Shown in pieces: positions 46,838 through 63,348 of a DNA stretch of 64,000 bases (positions within the stretch are counted from its first letter, which is position 1; every line of letters begins with the position of its first letter). A program made the position numbers and the translations under genes. The DNA lies in the NCBI RefSeq assembly GCF_004328645.1, contig NZ_CP031395.1, forward strand, positions 2,567,501-2,631,500. The letters are read 5' to 3'. Origin of the DNA: Hylemonella gracilis (GTDB lineage: Bacteria > Pseudomonadota > Gammaproteobacteria > Burkholderiales > Burkholderiaceae_C). The notes under the pieces are model-generated. The model had not been told where the DNA came from. It worked only from the letters and a program-made list of their open reading frames with translations, and did not search any database.

Positions 46838-46866
46838 TTTACTTAATACGATGTGTATTATGTAAA
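46838..46866. promoter_or_regulatory. AT-rich operator-like inverted repeat upstream of hsp20
   Basis: TTTACTTAATAC (46838-46849) and GTATTATGTAAA (46855-46866) are inverted repeats matching at 11 of 12 positions around a 5-base centre. It is the most AT-rich patch in the region. It contains TATTAT, which could also serve as a -10 box. It is unlike the FNR-type boxes nearby and fits a dimeric repressor or activator site; the cognate protein is unknown. Together with the FNR-type box and the tatD terminator it accounts for the 411-base gap 46664-47074. Confidence 0.55.
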
Positions 46867-46969
46867 GTATCAAAGAGAGCCGGAAAGGTGCAGACCGGGC
46901 AAGCAAGCATCCGTTTGAAACAGGTTCCCCTACCGTTGCTGTTCAAAAGTGCACCGTCTTGAACTGCAT

Positions 46970-47018
46970 TTGAGAAAAGTCAACGACGGACATGTCGTCG
47001 GTGCCTACAGTTTTCCAT
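46970..47018 (+). promoter_or_regulatory. FNR-type promoter of the hsp20-ABC exporter operon
   Basis: TTGAG-AAAA-GTCAA (46970-46983) matches the FNR/ANR consensus TTGAT-N4-ATCAA at 8 of 10 positions. A -10-like TACAGT lies at 47006-47011. This predicts a start near 47018 with the box centred at -41.5, the classic class II activator position. hsp20 begins at 47075. Confidence 0.6.
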
Positions 47019-47074
47019 GTGCCGCTGCGATTGCCGCAGCCCGTTCTCCGATCCACTTTTGTGAGGAAATCGCC

Positions 47075-47503
47075 ATGGGTACCCTGAGACTTCTTGATCC
47101 TGCGTTTGGGGACAACTTTGAAACCGCCATTCGCCGCTTCTTTTCTCCCGCCATGTTCGAGCCGGAACTGGCGCCATTGAAGATGCGCATTGACGTGAGC
47201 GAGAACAATGCGGCCTACACCGTCAAGGCCGACATCCCCGGCGTGAAGAAGGAAGACATCCATGTGCGCGTCGAAGGCAATCTGGTGCAGATCGACGCTG
47301 AAACCCAATCCGACAAGGAAACCCGCGGCGATGGCGACAAGGTGCTGCGCAGCGAGCGGTACTACGGCAGCCTTTCCCGCAGTTTCAGTCTTGGGCAGGA
47401 CGTGGACGCAGCCAAGGTGCAGGCGACGTATGCCGATGGCGTCTTGACGCTGGATCTGCCGAAAAAGGCATCTGCGCCATCGTCGAAGATCCGCGTTCAG
47501 TGA
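47075..47503 (+). CDS. Hsp20/alpha-crystallin small heat shock protein
   Basis: This is an ATP-independent holdase chaperone. The 142-residue product from ATG 47075 (GAGGA 7 bases upstream) has the alpha-crystallin domain from about residue 38: [66 protein letters not shown]. The C-terminus is short and ends SSKIRVQ, carrying the I-x-V anchor as IRV. The gene is first in an operon: its stop overlaps the GTG of the ABC ATPase by 4 bases (GTGA), an unusual coupling for a chaperone. Confidence 0.92.
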
Positions 47504-48240
47504 TCGAGGGTGACGGACCACGGGCAGCAGGAACCAACCGCCCAATTCTGCATGCTCGCGCGCTTACCAAGACCTATGGCGGCGGTGAGACCGCCGTCCA
47601 GGCCCTCAAGTCGGTTGATCTGGAGGTGCGCGAGGGTGAATTCATCGTGCTTCTGGGGGCTTCAGGCAGTGGCAAGTCAACGCTGTTGAACATCCTGGGC
47701 GGGCTGGATCTTCCAAGCTCCGGAGAGATCGAATTCCTTGGTGAGCGCCTGGATGGTGCGAGCGATGAGAGGCTGACGCGATACCGGCGCGAGCACGTCG
47801 GGTTCATCTTCCAGTTCTACAACCTGATTCCCAGCCTCACGGTGGCTGAAAACGTGGCGCTGGTCACCGACATCTCGCGCGATCCCATGCCGATCGATGA
47901 AGCGCTCGCACTCGTCGCGCTGACGCCCCGGCGCAACCACTTCCCTTCCCAGCTGTCGGGCGGCGAGCAGCAACGCGTGGCGATCGCGCGCGCCATCGCC
48001 AAGAAACCCCAGTTGTTGCTGTGTGACGAGCCCACTGGAGCGCTGGACTACGCAACCGGGAAACTGGTGCTCGAGGTCATCGCCCGCATCAATGCCGACC
48101 TGGGGACGACCGCCATCGTCATCACGCACAACGCAGCGATTGGCGGCATGGCGGATCGCGTGGTTCGCCTCGCCGATGGGCGCATTGCCAGCGTCGAGGC
48201 GCCGGCGCGTCGCCTGACGCCGGCTGAACTGTCCTGGTGA
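47500..48240 (+). CDS. ABC transporter ATP-binding protein (MacB/LolD family)
   Basis: This is the ATPase of a MacB-type transporter. The 246-residue product has Walker [10 protein letters not shown] (about residue 54), Q-loop [14 protein letters not shown], signature [15 protein letters not shown], Walker [13 protein letters not shown] and switch VITHN. It pairs with the adjacent FtsX-type permease and the HlyD-type adaptor. The GTG start overlaps the hsp20 stop, and its own stop overlaps the permease start. Confidence 0.93.
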
Positions 48241-50606
48241 TGATGAAAGCCCTGGACCGCAAAATCCTGCGCGACCTTCGCCTGCTCTGGAGCCAGGCCT
48301 TGACCATCGCGCTTGTGGTGGCCTGCGGTATCGGTGGCTTCCTTGCCATGCTGTCCGCCGTGGACTCGCTGGCGGGAGCGCGCGACGATTTCTACAGCGC
48401 AGACCGCTTCGGCGACGTCTTCGCGACCGTGCGGCGCGCACCCGCATCCGTGGCAGCGCGCCTGGTGGAGTTGCCCGGCGTGATCGACGTGCAAACCACG
48501 GTGGAGGCCATGGCGCGGGTGAGTGTGCCGGGCAGCATCGATCCGGTGATGGGCCAGTTGATCGGTCTGAATCCATTGGCCCTGCCCCGCCTGAATCGTG
48601 TCCTGCTGCGGTCCGGACGATGGGCCGAAGGCGGTGCGCGTAGCGGGGAACTGGAAGCGGTGGTGACCGAGAGTTTCGCGCAGGCGCACAAGCTCGGTCC
48701 GGGGGCGACCGTCAACGCCTTGGTCAACGGCAAGCAAAGGATGCTGCGCATCACGGGGACGGCGCTGTCTCCCGAGTACATCTTCGGCGGCATGATGGGC
48801 GTTCCCGATCTGCGCTCCTTCGGTGTCTTCTGGCTGGACCAGGCTGAGCTGGCCGCGGCCCTTGACATGACGGGGGCCTTCACCCGCGTCACGCTCAAAC
48901 TTGCGCCCGGAGCCTCACGTGCCACGGTGATCGACGCGGTCACGCGGCAGCTGGAACCACTCGGTGGTTCGCCGGCCCACGGGCGCGACGAACAGGCATC
49001 CCATGCCATGCTGGACAACGAAATCAGGGAGCAGCGGGTGCTTGGCACGGTGCTGCCCGCCATCTTTCTGGCGGTCGCCGGTTTCCTGCTCCACGTGGTG
49101 ACCGCGCGTCTCGTGGCGACCCAGCGAGAACAGATCGCCACGCTCAAGGCCCTCGGTTACGCCAACCGTGGCATTGCCCTGCACTACCTCAAGCTGGTCG
49201 CTCCCATGGTGCTCAGCGGGTATCTCCTGGGGCTGCTGCTCGGCGATTGGCTCGGTCAGGGGCTGACGCGACTCTATGCGGACTTCTTCCATTTCCCCAG
49301 CTTCGAGCATCGCATTCCCTTCAGTCTTGCCGCTGGCGCCTTGGCCATCGTTGCGCTGACAGCGGTTATGGGCACGCTCACGGCGATCGCCGCAACGGTG
49401 CGCCTCTCGCCCGCCGAGGCAATGCAGGCACCCGCGCCAGGCCGCTTTCGACGTGCGCTGCTGGAACGCCTGCCAGGGCTGCGCCCTACTCCCGCGTTCC
49501 GCATGATCGTGCGCAATATCGAGCGCAAGCCATTGCGCACGGCGGTCACCATCGGCGGCATTGCCGCCGCGGTCGCGATCGTGATCATGGGTAATTTCTT
49601 CCGCGACGCGATGGAGGTCATCATCCACACCCAGTTCAATCTGGCGATGCGGGGCGATCTCATTGTCTGGGCCAACGATCAGGTGGACGAAGGCGCGGCG
49701 CGAGAACTGGCCAGACTTCCCGGCGTGCTTCAGGTGGAAGCCGGCTACAGGGTTTCGGTCCGCTTCATCAACGGCGCGCGCAGCGAAAATGGCCTCGTCA
49801 ATGGGCTGGCCGCGATGCCGCAATTGCAACGCGTGGTGGATGTCGACAGGCGGGAGGCTTTCGCGGGCACACATGGCTTGCTGATGACGGACCGGCTGGC
49901 GGACAAGCTGGGCGTCAGGCCAGGCGACACCGTGACCTTGCAAGTGCGAGAAGGTCGGCGACAGGAGCGGCAAGTCATCGTCGAACGCACCGTGCGCGAC
50001 ATGATGGGGCTCAACAGCTACATGGAGCGCGAGGCGCTCCTGCGACTCCTGGGCGAAGGCCATGTCGCCAACAACTTCAGCCTTCGCGTTGAAAGCGGTG
50101 CGCTTCCGCATGTGCTGGAAACCACGCGCGACCTGCCGCGCATCGCGGGCGCATTCAGCAAGGCCACCCTGCTGCGCAACATGCGCGAAGTCAGCGCGCG
50201 CAACATTCTCATCATGAGCAGCATCCTGACGGTGTTCGCGACGGTGATCGCGGTGGGCGTGGTCTACAACAATGCGCGGATCGCCCTGTCCGAGCGCACG
50301 TGGGAGCTGGCGAGCCTGCGCGTTCTGGGTTTCACGCGCGCCGAAGTCTCCTTCATCCTGCTGGGAGAACTGGCGCTTGGCATTGCGCTCGCTTTGCCCC
50401 TGGGCATGGCGCTCGGCTCGGCGCTCACCCACACCATCGTGGAGTTGATGCGCTCCGACCAGTTCCTGTTTCCCGTGGAGATTCAGCCCCGCACCTACGC
50501 CTGGTCCGCCGTCGCGGTTGTCGCTGCGGGGGTTGCCAGCGCATTGGTCGTGCGGCGCCGGATCGACAGCCTGGACATGGTGGCCGCATTGAAAACGAGG
50601 GAGTGA
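48240..50606 (+). CDS. FtsX-like ABC transporter permease
   Basis: This is a 788-residue membrane protein with an N-terminal TM, a large extracytoplasmic domain (about residues 45-270), three TMs ending near 400 (first FtsX domain), another TM-periplasmic unit (about 425-690, starting RTAVTIGGIAAAVAIVIMG) and a final three-TM FtsX domain (NILIMSSILTVFATVIAVGVV onward). This duplicated FtsX layout is that of exporters or lipoprotein/peptide extruders driven mechanically by a MacB-type ATPase. The first of two adjacent ATG codons is chosen. The substrate is unknown. Confidence 0.88.
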   Translation: MMKALDRKILRDLRLLWSQALTIALVVACGIGGFLAMLSAVDSLAGARDDFYSADRFGDVFATVRRAPASVAARLVELPGVIDVQTTVEAMARVSVPGSIDPVMGQLIGLNPLALPRLNRVLLRSGRWAEGGARSGELEAVVTESFAQAHKLGPGATVNALVNGKQRMLRITGTALSPEYIFGGMMGVPDLRSFGVFWLDQAELAAALDMTGAFTRVTLKLAPGASRATVIDAVTRQLEPLGGSPAHGRDEQASHAMLDNEIREQRVLGTVLPAIFLAVAGFLLHVVTARLVATQREQIATLKALGYANRGIALHYLKLVAPMVLSGYLLGLLLGDWLGQGLTRLYADFFHFPSFEHRIPFSLAAGALAIVALTAVMGTLTAIAATVRLSPAEAMQAPAPGRFRRALLERLPGLRPTPAFRMIVRNIERKPLRTAVTIGGIAAAVAIVIMGNFFRDAMEVIIHTQFNLAMRGDLIVWANDQVDEGAARELARLPGVLQVEAGYRVSVRFINGARSENGLVNGLAAMPQLQRVVDVDRREAFAGTHGLLMTDRLADKLGVRPGDTVTLQVREGRRQERQVIVERTVRDMMGLNSYMEREALLRLLGEGHVANNFSLRVESGALPHVLETTRDLPRIAGAFSKATLLRNMREVSARNILIMSSILTVFATVIAVGVVYNNARIALSERTWELASLRVLGFTRAEVSFILLGELALGIALALPLGMALGSALTHTIVELMRSDQFLFPVEIQPRTYAWSAVAVVAAGVASALVVRRRIDSLDMVAALKTRE

Positions 50607-50611
50607 CATCC

Positions 50612-51805
50612 ATGAAAAATTCTGCAATCGCGCTGTACGCCACCGCCGGCATTGTCACCGTCGCCGCGCTGGGCTGGGCCTTCTCTGCGCAACCTCTGGA
50701 GGTAGAAGTTGCCGCGGTGGATCGGGGCCATTTCGAGCGTGCCATCGAAGAAGACGGTTGGACGCGTCTCCAGGACCGGTATGTCGTGTCGTCGCCAGTC
50801 GCGGCCCGTCTTTCACGCATGGGGTTGCGGGAAGGTGATCGGGTACAGGCCGGCGATGCCGTGGCGGTGCTGACGCCGGTGATGCCGTCCCTTTTCGACG
50901 AACGAAGCCAACGCGAGGCCACCGCGCGTTTCAAGGCCGCGCAAGCGGCCGTGAGCGCGGCCAGTGCGCAGGTGGAGCATGCGAAGGTGATGGAGAACGA
51001 AGCACGCATCGAGCTGCAGCGCACCGAGCAGATCACGCGGGGTGGGTTTGCTTCCCCATCCCATCTGGACAGCGCGCGACTGGCCCTTGAAGCATCGACG
51101 CGTGAGCTCGAAGCGGCGCTGGCCGCGCGTGAAGTGGCCGTGCAGGAGCGCGAGCAGGCGCAGGCATCACTTCAGCCCGTGGATGACCGCATGGTGGCGG
51201 GCCGCCCCCTTGCCGTGCGGGCGCCTGTTTCCGGCGTGGTGTTGCGCGTGCCGATCCAGAGCGAAACCACGGTCGCGCCCGGCGCCGCGCTGCTGGAAAT
51301 CGGCGATCTACGGCGGATGGAGGTGGTCGCCCAGTTGCTCACGGCGGATGCGGTTCAGGCGAAACCAGGGACCCGTGTGTCGATCGAACGCTGGGGAGGT
51401 CCCCCGCTCGAGGGGCGGGTGCGCCGCGTCGAACCGGCCGCTTTCACCAAGGTGTCTGCCCTGGGCATCGAGGAGCAGCGCGTCAATGTGCTTGTCGACA
51501 TCAGGTCACCGCCCAGTGAATGGCTTGCCATGGGTGATGGATTTCGCGTGAGCGTGCGCGTGATCACCGCCAGCACTGACGATGCAGTCATCGTTCCGGT
51601 TGGCGCCCTCTTCCCACTGGGTTCTGGCGGCATGGCCGTCTATGTGCTGGACGGGCGTCATGCCCGCCTTCAGCCGGTGGACATCGTGGCTCGCAATGGC
51701 AATGTGGGCTGGGTCCGAAGCGGCCTGAACCCGGGAGCGCAGGTCTTGGTCTACCCGCCGCCGGGTGTCACGGACGGCGCCCGGGTCGCGGTCCGGCGTC
51801 CTTAG
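50612..51805 (+). CDS. HlyD-family periplasmic adaptor subunit
   Basis: This is the membrane fusion protein of the exporter. The 397-residue product from ATG 50612 has an N-terminal TM/signal anchor (AIALYATAGIVTVAALGWAF), a split lipoyl domain (VVSSPVAARLSRMGLREGDR, then LAVRAPVSGVVLRVPI), an alpha-hairpin coiled coil between them (about residues 95-190, rich in Ala/Glu/Arg) and a C-terminal beta-barrel. It lies 5 bases after the permease and closes the hsp20-ABC-FtsX-adaptor unit. No outer-membrane TolC-type gene is adjacent. Confidence 0.88.
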   Translation: MKNSAIALYATAGIVTVAALGWAFSAQPLEVEVAAVDRGHFERAIEEDGWTRLQDRYVVSSPVAARLSRMGLREGDRVQAGDAVAVLTPVMPSLFDERSQREATARFKAAQAAVSAASAQVEHAKVMENEARIELQRTEQITRGGFASPSHLDSARLALEASTRELEAALAAREVAVQEREQAQASLQPVDDRMVAGRPLAVRAPVSGVVLRVPIQSETTVAPGAALLEIGDLRRMEVVAQLLTADAVQAKPGTRVSIERWGGPPLEGRVRRVEPAAFTKVSALGIEEQRVNVLVDIRSPPSEWLAMGDGFRVSVRVITASTDDAVIVPVGALFPLGSGGMAVYVLDGRHARLQPVDIVARNGNVGWVRSGLNPGAQVLVYPPPGVTDGARVAVRRP

Positions 51806-51984: not shown

Positions 51985-53436
51985 ATGGAAAGTCAGGCGA
52001 ATTCGTCCCGGAGTCCGGCATCCTTGCACAGCGTCCAAGACCGATTCCCCACCGCATACACCATCCTCTTCGTGCTGATCATCCTGATGGCCGCGCTGAC
52101 CTGGGTATTGCCGGCAGGCCAGTACCAACGTGTTGCCAACGAGGCCCTGGGCAAGGATGCCCCGGTGCCGGGGACCTACCAGGCCGTGGCGCCTACTCAA
52201 CAAGGCGTGGTTGACGTGCTGATGGCCCCCATCTCAGGCTTCTACAACCAGAGCTCGGGCATGGCGAATGCCATCGACGTTTCCCTCTTCGTGCTCATCA
52301 TCGGCGGATTCCTGGGCGTGGTGAATGCCACGGGCGCCATCAACACCGGCATCGAACGCGTGATGCAGCGGATGAAGGGCCGTGAAAAATGGATGATCCC
52401 GGTCTTGATGCTGTTGTTTGCCGCGGGTGGCACGACTTATGGCATGGCGGAGGAAACGCTGGCGTTCTACGTGCTGCTGTTGCCGCTGATGATCGCGGTG
52501 GGCTACGACGCGCTGACGGGCGTGGCGGTGATCATGGTGGGCGCGGGCATCGGGGTGCTGGGCTCCACCATCAACCCGTTCTCGACGGCCATCGCGTCCA
52601 ACGCGGCCGGCATTCCGTTCACGCAAGGCATGGTCCTGCGGCTGGTCATTCTGGCGTTGGGATGGCTGATCTGCGTGGTCTACGTGATGCGCTACGCCGA
52701 GCGTGTCCGCAAGGATCCGTCGGCCTCGCTGGTGGCCGATCTCAAGGCAACCAATGAGGCCCATTTCCTGCGCCATCGCGAGAGCCACAAAGACGCGGTG
52801 CTGACCGGACGACAGATGCTCATCCTGCTCATGTTCGGGGCTACCTTTGCCGCCATGGTCTGGGGCGTGGCGCTGCGAGGTTGGTGGATGGCCGAGATGT
52901 CCGCCCTCTTCCTGGCATCGGCCATAGCCATCGGGCTGGTGGACTGGATGGGTGAGAAGCCCTTCACCACCGCATTCGTGGACGGTTCCCGCGAGCTGCT
53001 GGGCGTGGCCTTGGTGATCGGCCTGGCGCGTGGCATCGTGGTCATCATGGACCAGGGCAAGATCACGGACACGATCCTGCACGCCTTCGAGGGTTGGATC
53101 GGTGGCATGCCGGACATCGCTTTCGTGAATGCGCTGTTCGCCACCGAAGGCCTGCTCAGTCTGCTGGTGCCGTCCACCTCGGGCCTGGCGGTCCTGAGCA
53201 TGCCCATTCTCGCGCCGCTGTCGGATTTCGCCGGCGTTTCCCGGCACCTCGCCGTGACGGCGTTCCAGACCGCGATCGGCATCACCAACCTGGTCACGCC
53301 CACGTATGCCGTGGTGGTGGGTGCCTTGGCCATCGGGCGCGTGCCCTACCACCGCTGGCTGCGCTTCATCTGGCCGCTCATGCTGCTGCTGACCTTGCTC
53401 AGCATGGCGTCGCTGAGCGTGGCGGTCCTGCTGTGA
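51985..53436 (+). CDS. arcD: YfcC-family basic amino acid antiporter (ArcD-type, arginine/ornithine)
   Basis: This is an inner-membrane antiporter of about 12 TM segments that would exchange external arginine for ornithine. The 483-residue product from ATG 51985 has AGGAGGT 7 bases upstream. It belongs to the YfcC/C4-dicarboxylate-like family rather than to the APC family of classical Arc[96 protein letters not shown]. The substrate is assigned from its place in front of arcA-arcB-arcC. Confidence 0.85.
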
Positions 53437-53438: not shown

Positions 53439-54680
53439 ATGTCCCGGATGCCCGCAGACCATTCGGTCCGCCTTGGGGTGCACTCCGAGGTCGGAAAGCT
53501 GAGGCGCGTGCTGGTGGGTTCACCTGGGCTCGCCCACGAACGCCTCACTCCGGCCAACTGCGACAGCATGCTGTTTGACGACGTGTTCTGGGTTGAACAG
53601 GCGCGCACCGATCATTTCGACTTCGTCTCGAAGCTGCAGGATCGCGGTGTCGAGGTGCTCGAGATGGGCCAGTTGCTCGGCGAGACCCTGGCCCTGCCGG
53701 TCGCGCGTGACTGGGTTCTGCAGCGCAAGGTCACGCCTGACCACGTGGGCGTGGGCATGCTGGATGAGCTCAAAGGTTGGCTGTGGGAACTGCCTGCCGA
53801 AGCGCTGGCGCGCTACCTCGTCGGTGGCGTTGCGGTGCACGAGCTGCCGTTCAAGCCGCATGGCATGTTCGGCTCCTACCTGGGGCCCGATGGCTTCGTG
53901 CTGCCTCCCCTGCCCAACCTGATGTTCACCCGCGATACCAGTGCCTGGATCTATGGTGGCGTCACCCTCAACCCGATGCACTGGCCCGCCCGCCGGCAGG
54001 AGACGCTGCTGACCGCGGCTGTCTACCGTTTTCATCCCCTATTCGCGCAAGCCGGATTTCCCATCTGGTGGGGTGACCCCGACGTGGACCATGGGCCGGC
54101 CACGCTGGAGGGGGGAGACATCATGCCCATCGGCAACGGCGTGGTGCTGGTCGGCATGGGCGAGCGCAGCACCCCGCAGGCGGTCGGGCAACTGGCGCGG
54201 GCCTTGTTTGCCGCTGGCGCGGCGCAGCGCGTCGTCGCCTGCCAGATGCCGCCGTCGCGCGCGACCATGCACCTGGATACGGTGTTTTCTTTCTGCGATC
54301 GCGATACCGTGACGAGTTTCGTGGAAGCGGCGGCGCAGATCGCCTGCCACAGCCTGTACCCCAACGACCAGGGTGGCGTCGAATACCGGCGCGAGAAGCA
54401 GCCGCTATTCGACGTGGTGGCGCAGTGCCTGGGACTGAAGCAACTGCGCGTCATCCCGACCGGTGGCGACGGGTATGAACAGGCGCGCGAGCAGTGGGAT
54501 GACGGCAACAACGTGGTTGCCATCGAACCCGGCGTGGTCATCGGTTACGACCGGAACACCCATACCAACACCTTGCTGCGCAAGGCCGGCATCGAGGTCA
54601 TCACCATCCGCGGCGGAGAACTCGGACGGGGCCGGGGCGGTGCGCATTGCATGACTTGCCCGCTGTGGCGCGACGCCTGA
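53439..54680 (+). CDS. arcA: Arginine deiminase
   Basis: ArcA hydrolyses arginine to citrulline and ammonia, the first step of the ADI pathway. The 413-residue product keeps the deiminase catalytic set: [32 protein letters not shown], the active-site His in [10 protein letters not shown] and nucleophile Cys in [10 protein letters not shown] (about C404). The chosen start is ATG 53439; a GTG at 53433 overlapping the arcD stop is possible. It is followed by arcB after 33 bases. Confidence 0.96.
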
Positions 54681-54713: not shown

Positions 54714-55715
54714 ATGGCATACAACCTGCGCAACCGCAGTTTTCTGTCCCTGCGGGACTATTCGGCTGGCGAGATCGGCTTCCTGCTCAAGCTCGCCGCC
54801 GATTTGAAATCCGCCAAGTACGCGGGCACCGAACAGCCGATGTTGCGCGGCAAGGAGATCGCCCTGATCTTCGAAAAAGACTCGACCCGCACCCGTGTCG
54901 GCTTCGAGGTGGCGGCACACGACCAGGGCGCCACGGTCACCTACCTCGGTCCGTCGGGCAGCCACATCGGCCACAAGGAGTCGATCAAGGACACCGCCCG
55001 CGTGTTGGGTCGTGTGTACGACGCGATCGAGTACCGGGGCTTTGGCCAGGCCGTGGTCGAGACGCTGGCGAAATGGTCCGGCGTGCCGGTCTACAACGGG
55101 CTCACCGATCAATTCCATCCGACACAGGTCCTGGCCGATCTGCTGACCATGCGTGAGCATTGCGAGAAACCCTTGCGCGAGATCGCCTTCTGCTTTCTTG
55201 GCGACACAGGCAACAACATGGGGACGTCGCTGCTGATCGGAGCCGCCAAGCTGGGCATGGATGTGCGCCTGTGCGGGCCGCAGTCCTTGTGGCCGGACCC
55301 GGCCTTGCGCGAGGAGGCACAGATGCTAGCGCAGGAGAGTGGTGCCCGCATCCTGCTGACCGAGGAACTGGCGGCCGGCGTGAAAAACTGCGACTTTCTG
55401 TACACCGATGTCTGGGTGTCGATGGGGGAGCCCGAGGCCGTCTGGGCCGAGCGCATCCAGCAACTGCTGCCCTACCAGGTCAACGCGCAGACGATGACCC
55501 TGACCGCCAATCCACGCGCGCGTTTCATGCATTGCCTTCCGGCCTTTCATGACACCGAGACGGAGGTGGCCGCGCGCATCGCCAAGCTCCATGGCATCAC
55601 CGCCATGGAGGTCACGGACGATGTGTTCGAAAGTCCGGCGTCGATCGTGTTCGATCAGGCCGAAAACCGCCTGCATACGATCAAGGCCGTTCTCGTGGCC
55701 ACCCTCGGGGACTGA
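54714..55715 (+). CDS. arcB: Ornithine carbamoyltransferase, catabolic
   Basis: ArcB phosphorolyses citrulline to ornithine and carbamoyl phosphate. The 333-residue product has the carbamoyl-phosphate motif EKDSTRTR (about residue 56), the [16 protein letters not shown] block, the ornithine loop [10 protein letters not shown] and the catalytic [10 protein letters not shown]. Its place between arcA and arcC marks it as the catabolic enzyme, although sequence alone does not separate ArcB from ArgF. arcC starts one base after its stop. Confidence 0.94.
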
Positions 55716-55716: not shown

Positions 55717-56634
55717 ATGGCACGTATCGTGGTCGCGCTCGGTGGCAATGCCCTTCTTCGGCGTGGCGAGCCTGTGAGCGCGTCCACGCAACGGGGCAAC
55801 ATCCGCGGCGCTGCGAAAGCCCTGGCGCGGCTGATGGCCCAGGGCCACCAACTCGTCATCACCCACGGCAACGGGCCGCAGGTGGGCCTGCTCGCGCTGC
55901 AGGGTGACGCCACAGGCCAGGGCGTGTTTCCGCTGGACGTGTTGGGCGCAGAGACCGAGGGCATGATCGGCTATGTATTGCAGCAGGAACTGGACAACGC
56001 CTGCCCGGAGCCCGCGCGATTTGCCACGCTGCTGACGCAGATCGAGGTGGACCCCCGCGACGCGGCCTTCCGGTCGCCGAGCAAGCCCGTGGGGCCGGTC
56101 TACAGCGAGGCCGATGCACGACGGCTGGCCGACCGGCGCGGGTGGGCCATTGCGCGCGATGGCGAGGCTTGGCGCCGCGTCGTGGCATCCCCCAGGCCCG
56201 TGCGCATCCTCGAGATCGAGGTCATCCGCCTTCTGGTGGCACAGGGCGTCACCGTGATCTGCGCGGGCGGTGGCGGCATTCCGGTGGCCCGACATCCGGA
56301 TGGCAGCCACATCGGCTTGGAAGCCGTGATCGACAAGGACCATGCCAGCGGCTTGCTGGCCGCCGAATTGCAGGCTGACATTCTGCTCATGCTCACCGAT
56401 GTGCCGGCTGTGTTCACGGCCTGGGGGACCGCAGCCCAGCGCGCGTTGGGCGATGTGACACCGACCGAATTGGCGGCCCTGGACTTTGCCGCAGGTTCCA
56501 TGGGCCCCAAGGTGCAGGCCGCCTGCGACTTCGTGAACCGCACCGGGGGCCTGGCCGGTATCGGCGCGCTGGAGGACGCATCCGCCATTCTCGCGCGCGA
56601 AACAGGCACGAGGGTGATCGCCCCGCGGCCGTGA
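55717..56634 (+). CDS. arcC: Carbamate kinase
   Basis: ArcC uses carbamoyl phosphate to make ATP from ADP, releasing ammonia and CO2, the energy-yielding end of the ADI pathway. The 305-residue product from ATG 55717 starts MARIVVALGGNALLRRGEP and contains VITHGNGPQVG, LDVLGAETEGMIGY, VICAGGGGIPV, DKDHASGLLA and LMLTDVPAV. It is separated from arcB by one base and followed 41 bases later by a flavodoxin-like gene. Confidence 0.96.
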   Translation: MARIVVALGGNALLRRGEPVSASTQRGNIRGAAKALARLMAQGHQLVITHGNGPQVGLLALQGDATGQGVFPLDVLGAETEGMIGYVLQQELDNACPEPARFATLLTQIEVDPRDAAFRSPSKPVGPVYSEADARRLADRRGWAIARDGEAWRRVVASPRPVRILEIEVIRLLVAQGVTVICAGGGGIPVARHPDGSHIGLEAVIDKDHASGLLAAELQADILLMLTDVPAVFTAWGTAAQRALGDVTPTELAALDFAAGSMGPKVQAACDFVNRTGGLAGIGALEDASAILARETGTRVIAPRP

Positions 56635-56675: not shown

Positions 56676-57206
56676 ATGAACAGCAACGTACTGGTGGTCG
56701 TCTATTCCTACACAGGCACCTCCCTGGCGGTGGCGAAGCTGATGTGCAGCCAGCAGCACTGGGCCCTGGCCTCGATCCAGGAGATCCGGTCGCGCGGTGG
56801 CGCATGGGGCTACTGGCGCTGCCTGCTCGATTCTTTCCTGCGCCGTCATCCGCCGATCCGTTACAACGGGCCGCCGCCGGGAGACTTCGATGTCGTGGTG
56901 CTGGTCTCGCCCATCTGGGCGTGGCGGCTGGCCGGTCCCATGCGCACCTTCGCCAGCCTGCAGCGTGCGCGCCTGCCCGCGGTGGCGGTCGTCTCCGTGA
57001 TGGGCGGGCAAGGCGCCGAGAATGCGGTGGCTGAGATCAGCGACATCCTGGGCCGCGCGCCGACCCTGAGCACGGCCGTCACGGCGCGCGAGGTCGACGA
57101 CGGGAGTTGCGCCGCGCGGTTGCAAGCATTTGGCAGCGCCGTGCAAAGCGCAGTGGACTCGAACGCCGTCGTCCGGCCGCCCCTCCTCTCCCCCGATTCG
57201 ATCTGA
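56676..57206 (+). CDS. Flavodoxin-like protein
   Basis: This is a 176-residue protein with the flavodoxin fold. The FMN phosphate loop reads VVYSYTGTSLAVAKLM (residues about 8-23), the isoalloxazine-side loop SPIWAWRLAGPMRTF (about 76-90), and a following MGGQGAEN loop. The ATG has CAGGAGGA 6 bases upstream. It runs with arcDABC and is probably the fifth gene of that operon, then ends 10 bases from the convergent kinase-fusion gene. The role is unknown; electron transfer or quinone reduction under low oxygen is a guess. Confidence 0.82.
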   Translation: MNSNVLVVVYSYTGTSLAVAKLMCSQQHWALASIQEIRSRGGAWGYWRCLLDSFLRRHPPIRYNGPPPGDFDVVVLVSPIWAWRLAGPMRTFASLQRARLPAVAVVSVMGGQGAENAVAEISDILGRAPTLSTAVTAREVDDGSCAARLQAFGSAVQSAVDSNAVVRPPLLSPDSI

Positions 57207-57216
57207 GTTCGGCCTC

Positions 57217-58764
57217 TCAGCAAGGAGACGCCGCGGAACGCCACGCCGCCGCCAGGGATTCGATGTCCACCGGCGCCTCCGTTGAAACCTGGAGGGCGCA
57301 CTCCTGCTCGTCCGGCGCCAGCGGTTCGTGTCCATGGACCTGTCGTTCCAGCACATCGACACCGGCTTCCGACGCGTCCGTGCCCGAGGCGGCACGGGCC
57401 TGCACCCGATGCCGCAAAGTGGCCTGGCTGGCCTGGCAATCCAGGATCGTGAAGGGCACATGGCGCTCCAGCGCCAATGCATGGAACTCGCGACGCCAGC
57501 TGCGACGCAGGAAGGCGGCGTCCACGATGACCGGGTAGCCGGCTTGCAGGGCCAGGCGCGCGCGCGTGAGCAGGTCGCCCAAGGTGGCGTCGTTGGCCTG
57601 TCCGGTGTAGATGTCCATCCCCCGCGCCCTGGAGCGCTCCAGGGGGGCAAGCCCGAACAGCCGCTTGCGCTCCACGTCCGAGCGGATCCGGATGGCCCCG
57701 GCGGCTTGCACCAGCTGTGCGGCGAGCATGGATTTGCCCGAGCCGGAAAGACCATGGGTGATCATCAGCCTGGCCTCGGCCTCGTCAGGTGGCTTCGACG
57801 CCCATGCGCTCGCCCATGCAAGGTAATCGGGGCCGGACGGTGCAGCACCCGTCTGTGGCCCCAGGCCCGACGTCATGGCCCGGACCAGCGCCCGGTAGAC
57901 CTCGTAAAAATGCAAGACCTGCAGCCCCTCGTGATCCCCACTGCCTTGCAGCCAGCCATCCAGGAAGCGGTATGCAAGATCCGGCCGGCCATGGGCTTTC
58001 AGATCCATGGTCAGGAACGCCACATCGCTCATCCTGTCGATCCAGCGAAGCTCCGCGTCGAATTCGATGCAGTCAAACGGCACGAGTTCTCCATCGATCA
58101 GCACGACATTGCCCATGTGCAGATCGCCATGGCATTCGCGCACGGCGCCATGCTGGCGACGGGCACGCCAAAGGGGCCGCAAAACCCTGTCTTGGTTTTC
58201 CAGCCAGGTTCGAAGCGTATGCAGGCGGTGGTCGTCGTGCTGGGCTTTCAGCGAGGCCCAGACGTCCTGGACCGATTGAAACACCCGCTCGGGGCTACCA
58301 AAGCCGTCCGGTGGGGCAGCCGATGCCTCGGCATGCAATCGGGCAAGGCGGCGGGCCAGGCCATCGATCCAGCTGGGGTCCAGCCCGCCCGACGCCAGCC
58401 GGATGCGCATCAGCGACGACTGGGCAAAGCGCCGCATCCGGACCACATGGTCAATGGGCAATCCGTCGTTGGCGCCTCCCAGTCTGGGTGACGCAGGCGA
58501 GCCCCGCACCGGCAGGACGTCGAGGTAGATCATGGGCGCGAACCGCCGGTTGAGCCGCAACTCCTCCTCGCAAAAGTGCCTGCGCGCATGGACGGTGCTG
58601 AAGTCTACGAAGGGAAAGCGCACCGGCTTCTTGAGTTTGTAGGCGTATGCGGGCGTCAGCAATACCCAGGAGATGTGGGTTTCGATGCGCTCGACCGGCT
58701 GACCCGTCTCACGCGCCAACATGGCGCCCAGCGCATTGACCAGCGTGGTCTCGATCTCTTGCAT
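57217..58764 (-). CDS. Fused aminoglycoside-phosphotransferase-like / P-loop kinase protein
   Basis: The 515-residue protein has two kinase-like parts. Residues about 1-325 match the COG2187-type phosphotransferase domain with VRECHGDLHMGNVVLIDGE (the HGDLHxxN catalytic loop, about 210-220) and a following FDCIEFD. Residues about 330-505 are a gluconate-kinase/zeta-toxin-like P-loop NTPase with THGLSGSGKSMLA (about 337) and SDVERKRL. The same fusion occurs in Mycobacterium tuberculosis Rv2004c, a DosR dormancy regulon member. The substrate is unknown. It is 41 bases after the FNR-like regulator on the same strand and probably cotranscribed. Confidence 0.83.
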   Translation of the reverse strand: MQEIETTLVNALGAMLARETGQPVERIETHISWVLLTPAYAYKLKKPVRFPFVDFSTVHARRHFCEEELRLNRRFAPMIYLDVLPVRGSPASPRLGGANDGLPIDHVVRMRRFAQSSLMRIRLASGGLDPSWIDGLARRLARLHAEASAAPPDGFGSPERVFQSVQDVWASLKAQHDDHRLHTLRTWLENQDRVLRPLWRARRQHGAVRECHGDLHMGNVVLIDGELVPFDCIEFDAELRWIDRMSDVAFLTMDLKAHGRPDLAYRFLDGWLQGSGDHEGLQVLHFYEVYRALVRAMTSGLGPQTGAAPSGPDYLAWASAWASKPPDEAEARLMITHGLSGSGKSMLAAQLVQAAGAIRIRSDVERKRLFGLAPLERSRARGMDIYTGQANDATLGDLLTRARLALQAGYPVIVDAAFLRRSWRREFHALALERHVPFTILDCQASQATLRHRVQARAASGTDASEAGVDVLERQVHGHEPLAPDEQECALQVSTEAPVDIESLAAAWRSAASPC

Positions 58765-58805
58765 CGCGGCAGCGTTTTGCGGGTGGATGAGCGCCGATCA
58801 ACCGT

Positions 58806-59603
58806 TCATTGAAGAACGGCCGCGTGAGGTGAAAGATGGCGATGGACAAAGGCCGACAGCGCCGCGACATCCGGAATCCGGACGTCGCGGCGGCCCTGTG
58901 CCGAAAAACCGATGACGTGATCGCGGGCCAGGCGTGACAGCGCGCGGCTGACGGATTCCAGTGTCATGCCGAGGTGGTTGCCGATTTCGGCCCGCGTCAT
59001 GCGCAAGGTAATCTGATCGGTCCGGATGCCGCGCTCTGCGAGTGAATCGGCCCAATTGAGCAGAAAATCCGCGACCCGCGCCACGGCGGGCAAGGTGCAG
59101 ACGGACATCAACGAGTCGCGCTCGCGTGCAATCGCCAGGCTCATGGCCGTGTGCAAGGCGTGCAACACCGCTGGGCATGTCCTGCTTGCGTCCAACAGGG
59201 TTTCGTAGGAAATCACCCAGATTTCCCCCGTGTCCATGGCGATGGCGTCTGAGCTGTAGTGTCCGTCGGCGATGCCATCGAAACCCAGCCAGTCACCGCG
59301 AAAATTCAGGCTGGCCAGTTGCTCTCGCCCGTCGGTCGCAAGGTTCACGATCTTGCAAAGGCCGGAGTTCAGCACATACAGATTGCCAAAACGCTCACCG
59401 GAGCGGTAGATGACATCGCCCGCGTGAACGACCCGGCGCTTGGGATGGAGTTGTCCGCTCAGCAGGCTGAGTGTCTCCGGTATCTGTCGACTCGCGGCAA
59501 GCCGGGCCTGCGCAACTGACGTTGTTGCGAGGTCGCTGCCATCGGCCACCGTCAGGTCAGCTTGGACGGGATTCGTCTCGGAGGGGGCAGCAAACGCGTG
59601 CAT
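58806..59603 (-). CDS. Crp/Fnr-family regulator lacking Fe-S cysteines
   Basis: The 265-residue product from ATG 59603 (AGGAG 6 bases upstream) has a cNMP-type sensor domain (about residues 50-150), a dimer helix, and a winged HTH with TRAEIGNHLGMTLESVSRALSRL. This HTH contains the E..SR recognition pattern used by FNR to read TTGAT. Unlike FNR or ANR there is no N-terminal Cys cluster; the only cysteines are isolated (LCKIV, RTCPA, SVCTL). It may therefore sense through another ligand, like FixK or DNR proteins, or act as a cascade member. It lies in a usp-regulator-kinase group whose promoter has an FNR-type box, suggesting autoregulation. Confidence 0.87.
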   Translation of the reverse strand: MHAFAAPSETNPVQADLTVADGSDLATTSVAQARLAASRQIPETLSLLSGQLHPKRRVVHAGDVIYRSGERFGNLYVLNSGLCKIVNLATDGREQLASLNFRGDWLGFDGIADGHYSSDAIAMDTGEIWVISYETLLDASRTCPAVLHALHTAMSLAIARERDSLMSVCTLPAVARVADFLLNWADSLAERGIRTDQITLRMTRAEIGNHLGMTLESVSRALSRLARDHVIGFSAQGRRDVRIPDVAALSAFVHRHLSPHAAVLQ

Positions 59604-59743: not shown

Positions 59744-60564
59744 TCAGTGCGACATCCATACCGGAATCGTCATGGTTTGCAGGAGGGTGCGTGTCGCCCC
59801 GCCCATCACCCATTCGCGGGCCCGACTGTGGCCGTAACAGCCCATGACCAGCAGATCCGCGCCAACATCCGCCGCGCGTGACAGCAGCAGATTGCCGATA
59901 TCGTCTTCCTCGGGCCCGCCCTTGTGCGCGTCAGCCGTGACGCCATGGATCTTCAGATAGCCTGCCAGCTTTTGCAGGGACTCCGCCGCCGCCTCGCCAT
60001 AGCTGATCACATGTACCTGGCGCGCGCGCCGCAACCAGGGCAAGGCGGAAGACACCGCGCGAGCGGCCTCCCGGCTTTCTTTCCAGGCCACCAGCACGGT
60101 GCGCCCGACGGCGGCGAATTCGCCGGCATGGGGCAGGATGAGCGCAGGCCGTCCGCTCTGCAGCAGCACACTGGGCAGGAAGTCCGCGGGCAAGGCCCCA
60201 CTGTCCGGGGCGTCCGCCATCCTTTGCCCCAGGATCATCAGGTCCGCATACAGGGCCTTGGCCGCGAAGCCCCACGGGCCTTCCGCCAGAGGCTCGGCCC
60301 ACCGCAGCCGGGGGAATCGCCGGCGGCCTGGACAAAGGCGGCGCGTGTCTTGTCCAGCCATTCCTGGTCCAGTGCCAGGAGCAATTCCGCGGCGACCGCA
60401 GCGCCCGCCATCGCATAGGGATACCGCGCCAGCGCGGTCAGCATGCACGGTTGGGCAGTGACCTCGGCATCGAAATCTTCCGCGATCTGGCGCGCAACCC
60501 TGATGCGAGATGCCGATTGCGGAGAGCTGTCGATGTGGAGAAGGATGGAACGAGGCGTTTGCAT
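59744..60564 (-). pseudogene. Tandem universal stress protein, apparent frameshift
   Basis: Two UspA domains in one protein of about 273 residues. The first begins MQTPRSILLHIDSSPQSASR from ATG 60564 (AAGGAG upstream) and runs to AAFVQAAGDSP. The frame then shifts, and the second part starts RLRWAEPLAEGPWGFAAKAL and ends with the Usp nucleotide-loop block GADLLVMGCYGHSRAREWVM. One extra base in the run of five G (plus strand 60311-60315) joins the two parts exactly. Either a sequencing error or a real lesion explains this. The gene precedes the FNR-like regulator and is divergent from the P-type ATPase, a neighbour pair also seen in mycobacterial dormancy genes. Confidence 0.82.
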
Positions 60565-60592
60565 GAAAGCTCCTTGCGGGAAGAGGAGAATT

Positions 60593-60641
60593 TGTGCACA
60601 GAGTAGGTCGTCCACCCGGGTGGCTTCTTGCGCTACATCAA
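60593..60641 (-). promoter_or_regulatory. FNR-type promoter of the usp-regulator-kinase group
   Basis: On the plus strand TTGCG-CTAC-ATCAA occupies 60628-60641: one perfect half-site and one partial. Reading the minus strand, a -10-like TACTCT lies at 60605-60600, so a start near 60593 would put the box centre at -41.5. The usp ATG is at 60564. Confidence 0.55.
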
Positions 60642-60679
60642 AGATTGTGGCGTTAGCCCTGCCCATGCAGGAGCAGAAG

Positions 60680-60727
60680 TTGATTTCGCGCAAGCAGGGG
60701 TAGCCACCCGCCGCTAAGGTGTAACTT
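60680..60727 (+). promoter_or_regulatory. FNR-type promoter of the MgtA-type ATPase
   Basis: TTGAT-TTCG-CGCAA (60680-60693) is one perfect FNR half-site and one partial. It has the same TTGCG-N4-ATCAA form as the neighbouring divergent box, in opposite orientation. A -10-like TAAGGT at 60715-60720 gives a start near 60727 and a box centre near -41. Confidence 0.55.
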
Positions 60728-60792
60728 TCCGCGCGTTGCCCACGCAGGACGATATGTTCAGACACCTACCGTCGCCCGCAGGAGCGGTCGCA

Positions 60793-63348
60793 ATGACAGA
60801 CCCTGTAACAGACGCGACGTCAGCTTGGTGGCTGAGGCCGCCGCCGGCTGCCGCCCAGGGCCTGTCGGGCGCGCAGGCGGACGAGGCATTGGCGAAGTAC
60901 GGGGCGAACGCTTTCCGGAAAGGTCCGCGTCACCTCGCCCTGACCCAACTGCTCGCGCGCTTTCGCAACCCTCTCATCCTCGTCCTGCTCGCGGCCAGCG
61001 TGGTGTCGGCGGCCACGGGTGATATCGCCAATTTCCTGATCATCCTGCTGATGGTGACGCTGAGCATCACCCTGGATTTTCTGCAAGAGCATCGGGCCAT
61101 CCACGCTTCCGATCGGCTGCGCGAATCCGTGGCGCTGCGCGCCCACGTGCTGCGGGATGGGCATCCACGGGAGATCCCGGTCACCGCGCTTGTGCCTGGG
61201 GATGTGGTGCTTCTTGCCGCAGGTGACCGCGTGCCCGCAGACGGGTTTGTGGTGGAGGCCCGTGACTTCTTTGTGAACCAGAGCCTGCTGACGGGCGAGT
61301 CCTATCCGGTGGAAAAGCACCCCGGCGTGCTGGAGCGTGAGGCCACGGAGCTGCAACAGGCGCGGAACGCGGTTTTCATGGGCAGCGTCGTGGTCAGTGG
61401 AAGTGCCCGCATCCTGATCATGTGCACGGGGAGCGCCACGGTCATGGGCGAGATGGCGCACAGCCTCCTGGTCGAACCACCGCCGACGGCTTTTGCGCTC
61501 GGCATGCACCGTTTCGGCCTCCTGCTCATGCGCATCACCGTCATGCTGGTGCTGTTCGTGATGCTCGTCAATCTGTTGCTGCACCGCCCCGTGCTCGACA
61601 CTTTTGTCTTTGCGGTCGCGCTCGCGGTAGGGCTGACGCCGGAGATGCTTCCCATGATCGTCTCGGTCACGCTGGCGCGTGGCGCCATGCGCATGGCCCG
61701 TCAGCGGGTCATCGTTAAGCGGCTGGCCTCCATTCAGAACCTGGGCGCCATGGATGTGCTGTGCACGGACAAGACGGGGACTTTGACCGAGGCCAGGATC
61801 CGCCTGGAACGGTGCGTCGACGTGAACGGCAACGACACGCCGCACCTGCGCAGGCTGGCCTACCTCAACAGCATCTTCGAGAGTGGTGTGCGCAGCCCGC
61901 TCGACGATGCCATCCTGGCTGGCGAGGTGGATGTGTCGGGATGGCGCAAGGTGGACGAAGTACCGTTCGATTTCGAGCGGCGGCGCGTTTCCGTGCTGGT
62001 CGAGCGCGCGGACACGCGCTGCCTGGTGGTCAAGGGGGCGCCCGAAGATGTGCTGGCGCTGTGCAGCCAGCAGGATGACGGCGAGGGACGCTCTTCATCG
62101 CTTCTGAACGGGAGCGCCCGGGAGGCACTGCAAGCACAGTACCAGACCCTGGAGCGGGAAGGCTTGCGCGTCCTGGGTGTCGCCTGGCGCGCGGTGGCCG
62201 CCGATCACACGCACGCCGACGTGAGCGACGAGCATGAACTGATCTTCGCGGGATTTTGCGCCTTCATCGATCCTCCCAAGGTGGACGCGGGGACCGCGCT
62301 GCATGCCCTGGCACGCAGTGGCGTGGACGTGAAGATCCTCACGGGCGACAGCGAACGGGTGACGCTGCATCTGTGCGCCTTGCTCAAGCTGCCGGTCGTG
62401 GGGGTTTTGACCGGCCAGGAGATCGCTCAGATGGACGAGGCCGCGCTTCGGGCCAGGGTCGGTCGCACCACCCTGTTCTGCCGGGTCAATCCGGCGCAGA
62501 AAAACAGGGTGATCCTTGCCTGCAAAGCCATGGGCCACGTGGTGGGTTATCTGGGCGATGGCGTCAACGACGCGCCGGCGCTGCTCTCCGCCGATGTGAG
62601 CCTCACGGTCGATTCCGCCGCCGATGTGGCGCGCGAAGTGGCCGACATCGTGATGCTGGAGCACAACCTCTCGGTGCTGCACGCCGGTGTTCAGGAAGGT
62701 CGGCGCACATTCGGCAACGTGATGAAGTACACCATGATGGGCACCAGCTCGAATTTCGGGAACATGGTGAGCATGGCCGGCGCCTCGCTGTTCCTGCCCT
62801 TTCTGCCCATGCTTCCATCGCAAATCCTGCTGAACAACGTGCTGTACGACCTGGCGCAGACCACCATCCCGTTGGACCTCGTGGATCCGTCGGACCTGCG
62901 CCGCCCGCGCAACTGGGACATGGGCTTCATCCTGCGTTACATGGGTCTGTTCGGACTGATCAGTTCCGCTTTTGATGTGCTGACCTTCTGCATTCTGCTG
63001 TGGGTATTCCAGGCAGACGATGGCCTGTTCCGGACCGGCTGGTTCATGGAATCGCTGATCACCCAGGTGCTGGTGATTTTCGTGATCCGCACCAGGGGCA
63101 AGCCCTGGGCGAGCCGCCCAAGCGCCGCGCTAATCGCCAGTTCATTGGGCGTCGTGGCGCTGGCCTTGCTGCTGCCCTTCACGCCGCTGGGGCGCCTGTT
63201 CCAGTTCGAGCAAGCACCGGCGGTGTTCTTCGTCTGGCTGCTGGGCATGGTGGTGACTTATCTGGCCCTGGTCGAACTTTGCAAGCGTTTTTTTTATGCA
63301 AGATGGGCCACGGTCCGGTCACCTGGTTCCGCGCCCCAGTTCCGCTGA
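60793..63348 (+). CDS. mgtA: P-type ATPase, magnesium-translocating (MgtA/MgtB type, P3B)
   Basis: This is a primary pump or importer in the inner membrane. From ATG 60793 (AGGAG 8 bases upstream) the product has 851 residues; TTG 60736 would add 19. It shows VNQSLLTGESYPVEKH, the TM4 ion-site segment VALAVGLTPEMLPMIVS, the phosphorylation site CTDKTGTLTEA, KGAPEDVL, and the hinge GDGVNDAPALL. The segment VIVKRLASIQNLGAMDVL before the DKTG is typical of MgtA/MgtB rather than of Ca or heavy-metal pumps. Magnesium is the expected ion from family. No PhoPQ-type leader gene is visible; instead the promoter region has an FNR-type box. Confidence 0.9.
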   Translation: MTDPVTDATSAWWLRPPPAAAQGLSGAQADEALAKYGANAFRKGPRHLALTQLLARFRNPLILVLLAASVVSAATGDIANFLIILLMVTLSITLDFLQEHRAIHASDRLRESVALRAHVLRDGHPREIPVTALVPGDVVLLAAGDRVPADGFVVEARDFFVNQSLLTGESYPVEKHPGVLEREATELQQARNAVFMGSVVVSGSARILIMCTGSATVMGEMAHSLLVEPPPTAFALGMHRFGLLLMRITVMLVLFVMLVNLLLHRPVLDTFVFAVALAVGLTPEMLPMIVSVTLARGAMRMARQRVIVKRLASIQNLGAMDVLCTDKTGTLTEARIRLERCVDVNGNDTPHLRRLAYLNSIFESGVRSPLDDAILAGEVDVSGWRKVDEVPFDFERRRVSVLVERADTRCLVVKGAPEDVLALCSQQDDGEGRSSSLLNGSAREALQAQYQTLEREGLRVLGVAWRAVAADHTHADVSDEHELIFAGFCAFIDPPKVDAGTALHALARSGVDVKILTGDSERVTLHLCALLKLPVVGVLTGQEIAQMDEAALRARVGRTTLFCRVNPAQKNRVILACKAMGHVVGYLGDGVNDAPALLSADVSLTVDSAADVAREVADIVMLEHNLSVLHAGVQEGRRTFGNVMKYTMMGTSSNFGNMVSMAGASLFLPFLPMLPSQILLNNVLYDLAQTTIPLDLVDPSDLRRPRNWDMGFILRYMGLFGLISSAFDVLTFCILLWVFQADDGLFRTGWFMESLITQVLVIFVIRTRGKPWASRPSAALIASSLGVVALALLLPFTPLGRLFQFEQAPAVFFVWLLGMVVTYLALVELCKRFFYARWATVRSPGSAPQFR

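Follow-up and report, generated by a model that had tools for sequence, protein, structure and literature searches.

The arcDABC operon of Pseudomonas sits behind FNR-type boxes with class II geometry, and the ArcD family of this genus is APC-type. FixK2 is devoid of the iron-sulfur cysteine cluster and uses the same class of boxes, and FixK-type and DNR-type proteins are second-tier activators that extend or modulate the response. Universal stress protein (USP) genes of Pseudomonas behind FNR-type boxes are cited in a section of PMC6127331, and FixK2 is described in parts of PMC9104804 as auto-repressed and subject to thiol control via Cys183. The low-oxygen islands that turned up in the literature belong to Burkholderia cenocepacia, whose lxa locus (BCAM0275-BCAM0323) includes USP and alpha-crystallin/heat-shock genes with a low-oxygen role, is missing in strain H111 and has the FNR-type BCAM0049 as suggested regulator, according to sections of PMC6127331, PMC9733578, PMC3759415 and PMC9104464. 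Islands of the lxa type have already been likened to the DosR regulon (part of PMC6127331), and CtpF is a calcium pump under DosR in Mycobacterium tuberculosis (part of PMC9180918). Neither the island presented here nor a clade of Cys-less FNR proteins was described in the titles and abstract openings covered, the clade itself having been narrowly searched.

The window analysed is a stretch of 64,000 nucleotides of Hylemonella gracilis (NZ_CP031395.1) that contains a 16.7-kb stress-survival gene cluster, in which 12 genes are intact and the single usp gene is broken (Table 1). An earlier note on this DNA had listed hsp20, an ABC/FtsX exporter, arcDABC, a phosphotransferase/P-loop fusion and an FNR-like regulator; all are present with domain matches, and the four FNR-type boxes proposed ahead of four units were all found. 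This cluster is probably a compact lxa-type island for survival at low oxygen, served first by a four-Cys FNR and then by its resident regulator, FnrX, as second-tier activator on the same boxes.

Table 1. Features of the H. gracilis island, in order of position in the window.
Feature	Position	Strand	Matches and remarks
FNR-type box TTGAGAAAAGTCAA	46970..46983	+	upstream of hsp20-ABC exporter unit
-10-like TACAGT	47006..47011	+	22 nt past hsp20 box (class II spacing)
Hsp20/alpha-crystallin	47075..47503	+	PF00011
ABC exporter ATPase	47500..48240	+	PF00005; LolD/DevA/MacB-like, under the curated cut-offs of those models
FtsX/MacB-type permease	48237..50606	+	PF02687, PF12704
HlyD/RND-type periplasmic adaptor	50612..51805	+	PF13437, TIGR01730
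FNR-type box TTGATGTTTGTCAA	51874..51887	+	upstream of arcDABC; no TANNNT at offset 21-22
arcD-like antiporter, DcuC/YfcC family	51985..53436	+	PF03606; NF008611 under cut-off
arcA, arginine deiminase	53439..54680	+	PF02274, NF002381
arcB, ornithine carbamoyltransferase	54714..55715	+	PF00185, PF02729
arcC, amino acid kinase family	55717..56634	+	PF00696; carbamate kinase assigned by position
Flavodoxin-like protein	56676..57206	+	homologues in FnrX-linked Variovorax loci
aphK, APH-AAA_33 phosphotransferase/P-loop fusion	57217..58764	-	PF01636, PF13671
FnrX, Cys-less CRP/FNR-type regulator	58806..59603	-	recognition helix LESVSR
usp, universal stress protein	59744..60564	-	N- and C-terminal parts in two frames
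-10-like TACTCT	60600..60605	-	of usp-fnrX-aphK, 22 nt past box
FNR-type box TTGATGTAGCGCAA (TTGCGCTACATCAA on + strand)	60628..60641	-	upstream of usp-fnrX-aphK
FNR-type box TTGATTTCGCGCAA	60680..60693	+	upstream of ATPase
-10-like TAAGGT	60715..60720	+	21 nt past ATPase box
P-type ATPase, MgtA-type (IIIB)	60793..63348	+	TIGR01524; PDB MgtA

The usp gene is readable only across two frames, with the break near 60313-60330, and thus no intact tandem USP of the kind previously placed beside the P-type ATPase is present in the DNA as sequenced. The hemN alignment beside the cbb3 genes is likewise spread over two frames, and with this second case an assembly error is possible for the usp break. 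The ATPase reading frame opens at 60736, with AGGAG ahead of the likely ATG start at 60793. Its product scored 867 bits with the Mg-type model (cut-off 611) and matched MgtA in the PDB at E 1e-204, against about 1e-90 for Ca-ATPases, so the parallel with CtpF drawn earlier was abandoned. The Pfam match of the flavodoxin-like protein was not significant (Flavodoxin_5, E 0.079), but proteins 63-64% identical to it are encoded in three FnrX-linked Variovorax loci (L017, L018 and L127). Among the island proteins scanned, no Pfam match was obtained for BON, cytochrome c, phosphofructokinase, response-regulator or histidine-kinase domains, and the usp count was one.

The island is located between tatD and ldcA, an interval that is without it in the five same-genus genomes (5/5) read across. 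Its GC content is 0.646, compared to 0.653 (sd 0.017) in 16.7-kb chunks of the own-genome sample, exact 10- to 30-base matches between the flanking stretches were not found, and the only two tRNAs of the window are both near 9.3 kb. The near-average GC, the lack of a flanking repeat and the distant tRNAs therefore give no sign of foreign origin except absence from relatives. The palindrome at 46838-46866, upstream of hsp20, was sought elsewhere with no result, and when the island was scanned for terminator-like and promoter-like signals, the yield did not exceed that of shuffles.

Three of the four boxes (hsp20, usp and Mg-ATPase) have a -10 hexamer at the distance typical of FNR class II promoters, so the FNR-type promoters of the earlier note are borne out at these three, the arcD box having no class II TANNNT. 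The spacing was taken from FnrX loci of relatives, where 90 of 336 oriented strong-box flanks (89 of 334 with a duplicate locus dropped) have a TANNNT beginning at offset 21 or 22, and no other offset has more than one. Strong boxes number 3 per 2,189 noncoding bases in the island, the one-mismatch hsp20 box being outside these three, compared with 2 per 58,974 in 20 pieces of the own-genome sample and 0 per 47,098 in 20 control pieces of relatives; noncoding masks used ORFs called by a greedy longest-ORF rule, and the density counts include both L034 and L095, one identical stretch. A genome-wide scan of the half-site pattern with up to one mismatch yielded 333 sites, and half-site scanning as sole evidence was dropped as too noisy. 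The composite of box plus -10, whose half-site form was picked with the window boxes known, is strong evidence: it is rare, with 11 occurrences in the 3.82-Mb genome and none in the backward control, and 3 of the 11 are inside the island, where 0.035 would be expected (P about 7e-6). Another composite lies ahead of a heavy-metal P-type ATPase gene beside ccoN, ccoG, hemN and a four-Cys FNR gene. The own-genome control of the spacing survey is without the piece carrying these genes (L079: own FNR, cco, hemN), which the linkage recount includes.

The resident regulator, called FNR-like in the earlier note, is not supported as a local oxygen-sensing FNR, since FnrX lacks all four ligand cysteines of the FNR 4Fe-4S cluster. 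The four-Cys FNR paralogue is encoded about 260 kb from the island, beside cbb3 oxidase genes (G000 C1:2368254). The recognition helix of FnrX fits the FNR pattern E-x-x-SR, and helices of the form E-[ST]-x-SR are common to FNR and FnrX, so the boxes cannot separate these proteins. FnrX sequences fall on one side of a 100/100 tree branch and form a distinct clade, in which Cys169 is near-invariant (163 of 165 sequences, leaving aside P0002 and those whose last 230 residues are identical). A three-Cys site (118, 140 and 169) was rejected, as 118 and 140 are missing from the window's own subgroup and only 169 is steady. A kinase partner of FnrX in its own genome was also discarded; the two matches reach 29-31% and cover the C-terminal half only.

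FnrX, at E up to 1e-50, was missing in 119 of 150 genomes of the family sample, both same-genus ones included. An FNR box no more than about 400 nt ahead of the aligned fnrX start was detected in 52 of 57 distinct loci of relatives, 47 of them with a strong box (53 of 58 and 48 with the duplicate counted); directly upstream of fnrX in the window, such a box was not found. Linkage was counted in loci of at least 17 kb (45/54, 44 distinct, one of the identical L034 and L095 being dropped), which are Variovorax-rich and hence non-independent. USP genes were found in 26/44 of these loci, BON in 9, P-type ATPase in 7, and aphK and hsp20 in 3 each, all absent from 40 control pieces, and hemN (12/44) and cco (10/44) were each found in one control, the piece carrying the genome's own FNR; phbB showed no excess (10/44 against 8/40). 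Since relatives of the regulator adjoin USPs and, in some loci, genes for cbb3 oxidase, hemN, phosphoketolase, BON or hemerythrin, the low-oxygen stress character previously proposed is upheld. Conserved linkage of the whole set was not recovered, with arcA, arcC and the ABC-FtsX permease in one of the 44 loci each and arcD in none. The relatives typically have an OTC half-gene (41/44) and matches for a PAS/GAF kinase and a response regulator (36/44; controls 4 and 3 of 40), and neither the half-gene nor the pair was found in the window. A Variovorax megaplasmid stretch carries FnrX, USPs, a cation ATPase and aphK together, and a Burkholderia stagnalis locus has several USP matches, BON, hsp20, aphK and an FNR-like gene, with 7 box plus -10 composites in 41 kb.

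In the working proposed, falling oxygen would lead activators that bind FNR boxes to switch on four units: hsp20 with the ABC/FtsX/HlyD exporter; arcDABC, for ATP from arginine, with the flavodoxin-like gene; the Mg2+-type P-type ATPase; and usp-fnrX-aphK, a presumably co-transcribed unit. Most likely, the four-Cys FNR encoded next to the cbb3 genes would sense the first signal and, through the usp promoter, cause FnrX to be made. With its FNR-type helix and no iron-sulfur ligands, FnrX may then bind the same boxes as a second tier and extend or modulate the response, a role suggested by likeness to FixK-type and DNR-type behaviour, and the whole may serve survival. Counted against this reading were the non-conserved gene set, the broken usp, the arcD box without -10 spacing, the lack of an own box for FnrX here, the rarity of FnrX in the family sample, and the missing OTC half-gene and kinase/response-regulator pair.

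It is rather unlikely that the four-Cys FNR alone drives the island, with FnrX as a passenger or responding to another signal (nitric oxide, thiol redox) at other targets. The shared recognition helices, the genome's four-Cys FNR and cbb3 genes, which have a composite promoter to themselves, and the boxless fnrX of the window agree with this, but FnrX resides in the island and its relatives show an upstream box and nearby USP genes; moreover, in 5 of 53 distinct FnrX loci an FNR with four or three of the cysteines is also encoded, at a distance of up to about 10 kb. An antagonist FnrX, which would hold the boxes in air and keep the units off until displaced by FNR or a redox change, is improbable: the box positions are those of activating class II and the fnrX genes of relatives have boxes upstream, although a cluster-free protein is not expected to undergo cluster-dependent inactivation, and auto-repression of FixK2 is on record (in part of PMC9104804). 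An accidental gathering of stress genes, with boxes equally accidental, in favour of which the frequent half-site matches and the unlinked members in relatives could be invoked, is highly improbable given the composite counts, the island-free interval in the five same-genus genomes read and the flavodoxin-like, aphK, usp and fnrX content common to Variovorax loci.

With second-tier activation retained as the preferred reading, the fresh part of the finding is FnrX itself as a proposed second-tier, perhaps thiol-switched regulator. Only tentatively, its clade may be proposed as an undescribed group of Burkholderiales FNR paralogues that exchanged the iron-sulfur sensor for a single thiol, that of Cys169 where the dimer helix ends, and that act, resident in islands and controlled by boxes, as second-tier switches holding lxa-like islands on after the oxygen signal. 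The clade raises the question of which signal is perceived after cluster loss, and whether the anoxic response is prolonged. As the composite promoter has a very low background on the stretches tested, islands and regulons could be read from environmental Burkholderiales sequence.

Compared to the DosR regulon of M. tuberculosis, the island is alike in its themes (Hsp20, USP, cation ATPase and hypoxic survival), but it has no DosR/DosS-type two-component system, its regulator has a CRP/FNR fold and its ATPase is Mg-type instead of calcium-type as CtpF; descent from the DosR system was rejected because ATPase class and regulator both differ. Like the FNR/ANR regulon of Pseudomonas, it has an arc operon and a USP gene behind FNR-type boxes, and class II geometry occurs in it, whereas its ArcD is of the DcuC/YfcC family and not APC-type. 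FnrX shares with FixK2-type regulators the lack of an iron-sulfur cysteine cluster, but it is closer to FNR (PDB E 5e-26 vs 3e-15), its Cys169 is not at the position of FixK2 Cys183, judged from aligned end coordinates only, and the response regulator neighbouring its relatives is OmpR-type (one scanned). The nearest described system is lxa, which, like the present island with its broken usp, has USP and Hsp20 genes together among other stress genes. As far as the lxa sources were covered, that locus comprises 50 genes with six USPs, in contrast to the 12 intact genes and single broken usp found here, and arcDABC, the ABC exporter and the Mg-ATPase set the present island apart. BCAM0049, judged by its number, lies beyond the lxa gene range, whereas the Cys-less FNR paralogue is inside the island; the likeness in FNR-composite promoters was read in the B. 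stagnalis locus of similar content and not in B. cenocepacia sequence. With lxa as nearest relative and its DosR likeness already published, the island appears to be a compact form of the known lxa-type islands of Burkholderiales, and the independent assembly first envisaged is not supported.

The interval between tatD and ldcA contains hsp20, an ABC/FtsX/HlyD exporter, arcDABC (with ArcD being a DcuC-family antiporter), a flavodoxin-like gene, the APH-AAA_33 phosphotransferase/P-loop fusion aphK, the CRP/FNR-type regulator fnrX, usp and a P-type ATPase. The earlier note had compared this ATPase with mycobacterial CtpF, which was not borne out: TIGR01524, the model for Mg2+ translocation, gave it 867 bits against a cut-off of 611, and among solved structures MgtA matched it (E 1e-204) far beyond calcium pumps (about 1e-90). 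The universal stress protein (USP) gene is present as claimed, but as sequenced its frame is split in two pieces; a one-frame relative of 274 aa is found in a Variovorax island. The frame switch, at window positions 60313-60330 adjoining a run of G, may be either a real break or an assembly error. The hemN gene beside the cbb3 genes in the own-genome FNR piece (L079, about 9526) likewise aligns in two frames.

Features of the island and composite promoters outside it
Feature	Position	Remark
tatD	45821-46663	one edge of the island
ldcA	63422 to past the window's end	other edge of the island
usp	N-terminal piece from 60564, C-terminal piece ending at 59744	two reading frames
Composite		before heavy-metal ATPase adjoining cbb3 genes
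Composites	C1:2508849 and 2513053 (own-genome contig)	before oxalyl-CoA decarboxylase and TctC-type receptor
Composite		before LigA protocatechuate 4,5-dioxygenase subunit
Composite		before Na:sulfate-type symporter
Composite		before PAS-GAF-GGDEF protein

Strong FNR-type boxes (TTGAY-N4-RTCAA, or CGCAA/TTGCG on one side) were counted in noncoding DNA, with 3 in 2,189 bases of the island, 2 in 58,974 bases of the own-genome sample and none in 47,098 bases of control pieces from relatives. The FnrX loci gave 11 in 44,484 bases (first genome set) and 50 in 77,499 (second, species-named set), the two sets sharing one stretch. The hsp20 box falls outside the island count, as it has one mismatch and was scored as coding by the ORF rule. 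In 52 of 57 distinct loci a box (strong in 47) was present no more than about 400 nt ahead of fnrX.

In relatives' FnrX loci, 90 of 336 oriented flanks had a TANNNT hexamer beginning 21 or 22 nt past the box (89/334 with a duplicate locus dropped), and no other offset had it more than once. FNR class II promoters have this spacing. Boxes had been proposed before four transcription units of the island; those of hsp20, usp and the ATPase have class II spacing, but the arcD box is without TANNNT at this offset. The proposed genome scan, carried out with the composite pattern TTGA-N6-KCAA-N21/22-TANNNT, gave 11 occurrences in the genome, 3 of them in the island (P about 7e-6), and none in the backward control. 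A slightly wider composite pattern, run on the fetched sequences, was found 3 times in the island, once in 400 kb of the own-genome sample, never in 400 kb of relatives' controls, 76 times in species-named FnrX loci and 24 times in other FnrX loci; at the control spacing of 25-26 it was absent from the island and each 400-kb control and occurred once in 616 kb of species-named FnrX loci. Six of the eight composites outside the island precede a likely gene (see table), no clear downstream gene being assigned for the other two. Those before oxalyl-CoA decarboxylase and the TctC-type receptor could serve oxygen-linked oxalate use.

About 100-130 bp ahead of the hsp20 box, a palindrome, TTTACTTAATAC-GATGT-GTATTATGTAAA, is located at window positions 46838-46866. 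It is single-copy in the window; 400 kb of the own genome contained one poor match and 616 kb of species-named FnrX loci none. It is possibly an operator for another regulator.

Eleven HTH_Crp_2 matches were found in the own genome, 7 above the curated cut-off. An FNR with four ligand cysteines is encoded at C1:2368254, adjoining ccoN, ccoG, hemN and a heavy-metal ATPase. The island FnrX has none of the four cysteines, with Ser at the central position, and keeps the recognition helix LESVSR. The three N-terminal cysteines occur together in none of the 120 sequences listed, island FnrX included, and in two rows of the listed FnrX-like sequences a single Cys falls at the third N-terminal position. 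The central Cys, absent from the window's FnrX, is present in 127 of 165 FnrX sequences, and Cys169 (FnrX numbering), at the dimer-helix end, in 163. In a tree with 23 FnrX and 12 FNR rows (the latter with three or four Cys, one of them long-branched), the two groups were separated at 100/100. A Cys-less, box-linked FnrX clade was not met in the open-licence literature searched, which was screened mostly by titles or abstract openings. FNR-like proteins of Burkholderia stagnalis (L129:14348, L139, L140) align, in a provisional register, with three N-terminal cysteines and Gly at the central ligand position.

FnrX (E up to 1e-50) was found in 31 of 150 family genomes, own genome included, and aphK in 56; FnrX was absent from both same-genus genomes of this set. 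In nine same-genus genomes tatD and ldcA share a contig, 0.85 to 37 kb apart, and the interval is a variable site among them, with no island-protein matches in the five intervals examined in full. In a same-genus genome (L058), an ABC exporter is shortly followed by a P-type ATPase that aligns with the window's at 48%.

Linkage was compared between 40 control pieces and the 44 distinct FnrX loci that span 17 kb or more. Conserved linkage, which the earlier note had proposed as a check, was seen for USP (26/44 vs 0/40), but few loci have the rest of the set (arcA 1, arcC 1, arcD 0, HlyD 2 and ABC-FtsX permease 1 of 44). Other families were OTC or its half-gene (41/44 vs 0/40), PAS kinase (36/44 vs 4/40), response regulator (36/44 vs 3/40), hemN (12/44 vs 1/40), ADH (12/44 vs 2/40), cco (10/44 vs 1/40), phbB (10/44 vs 8/40) and, all against 0/40, BON (9/44), P-type ATPase (7/44), hemerythrin (7/44), phosphoketolase (4/44), aphK (3/44), hsp20 (3/44) and flavodoxin-like genes (3/44, one a fragment). 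A half-length OTC gene, with the carbamoyl-phosphate domain only, adjoins fnrX at L126:16630-17136 and in relatives, and the OTC or arcB match is divergent to fnrX in loci whose gene order was examined.

A 48-kb stretch of a Variovorax paradoxus megaplasmid includes cbb3, hemN, USPs, phosphoketolase, fnrX, a kinase and a regulator, with consecutive genes for USP, exopolysaccharide protein, cation ATPase (nearest model calcium IIA2, below its cut-off), aphK, USP and hemerythrin. A B. stagnalis locus contains several USP matches, BON, hsp20, aphK, an FNR-like gene and 7 composite promoters in 41 kb.

Most likely, a fall in oxygen would activate the four-Cys FNR, which would then switch on the island's class II promoters. 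From the usp promoter, FnrX and the kinase fusion would be made as well, provided that usp-fnrX-aphK is one transcript; the intergenic gaps are 140 and 41 nt, and on this strand a terminator-like scan, no richer than shuffles, had its single match within fnrX and left the gaps between these genes empty. Cluster-free FnrX would prolong or adjust the response at the same boxes, while arginine deiminase would provide ATP, Hsp20 and USP would shield proteins, and the Mg pump and exporter would serve the envelope. We infer both that the boxes drive expression and that FnrX acts on them.

The lxa locus of Burkholderia cenocepacia, a low-oxygen island that carries six USPs and a heat-shock protein, is absent from strain H111 and has already been compared with the DosR regulon of Mycobacterium tuberculosis (PMC6127331, PMC9733578, PMC3759415, PMC9104464). 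In H111 the FNR-type gene anr2 adjoins a USP gene and is important for survival without oxygen. The likeness to the DosR gene set raised in the earlier note has a printed precedent in lxa; its CtpF parallel is not supported, the ATPase being of the Mg2+ type. Both lxa and the window island pair USP and heat-shock genes, lxa with six USPs whereas the island has one split usp. Because the lxa island and its DosR comparison are already in print, the window island appears to be a compact form of the island type known from the lxa locus.
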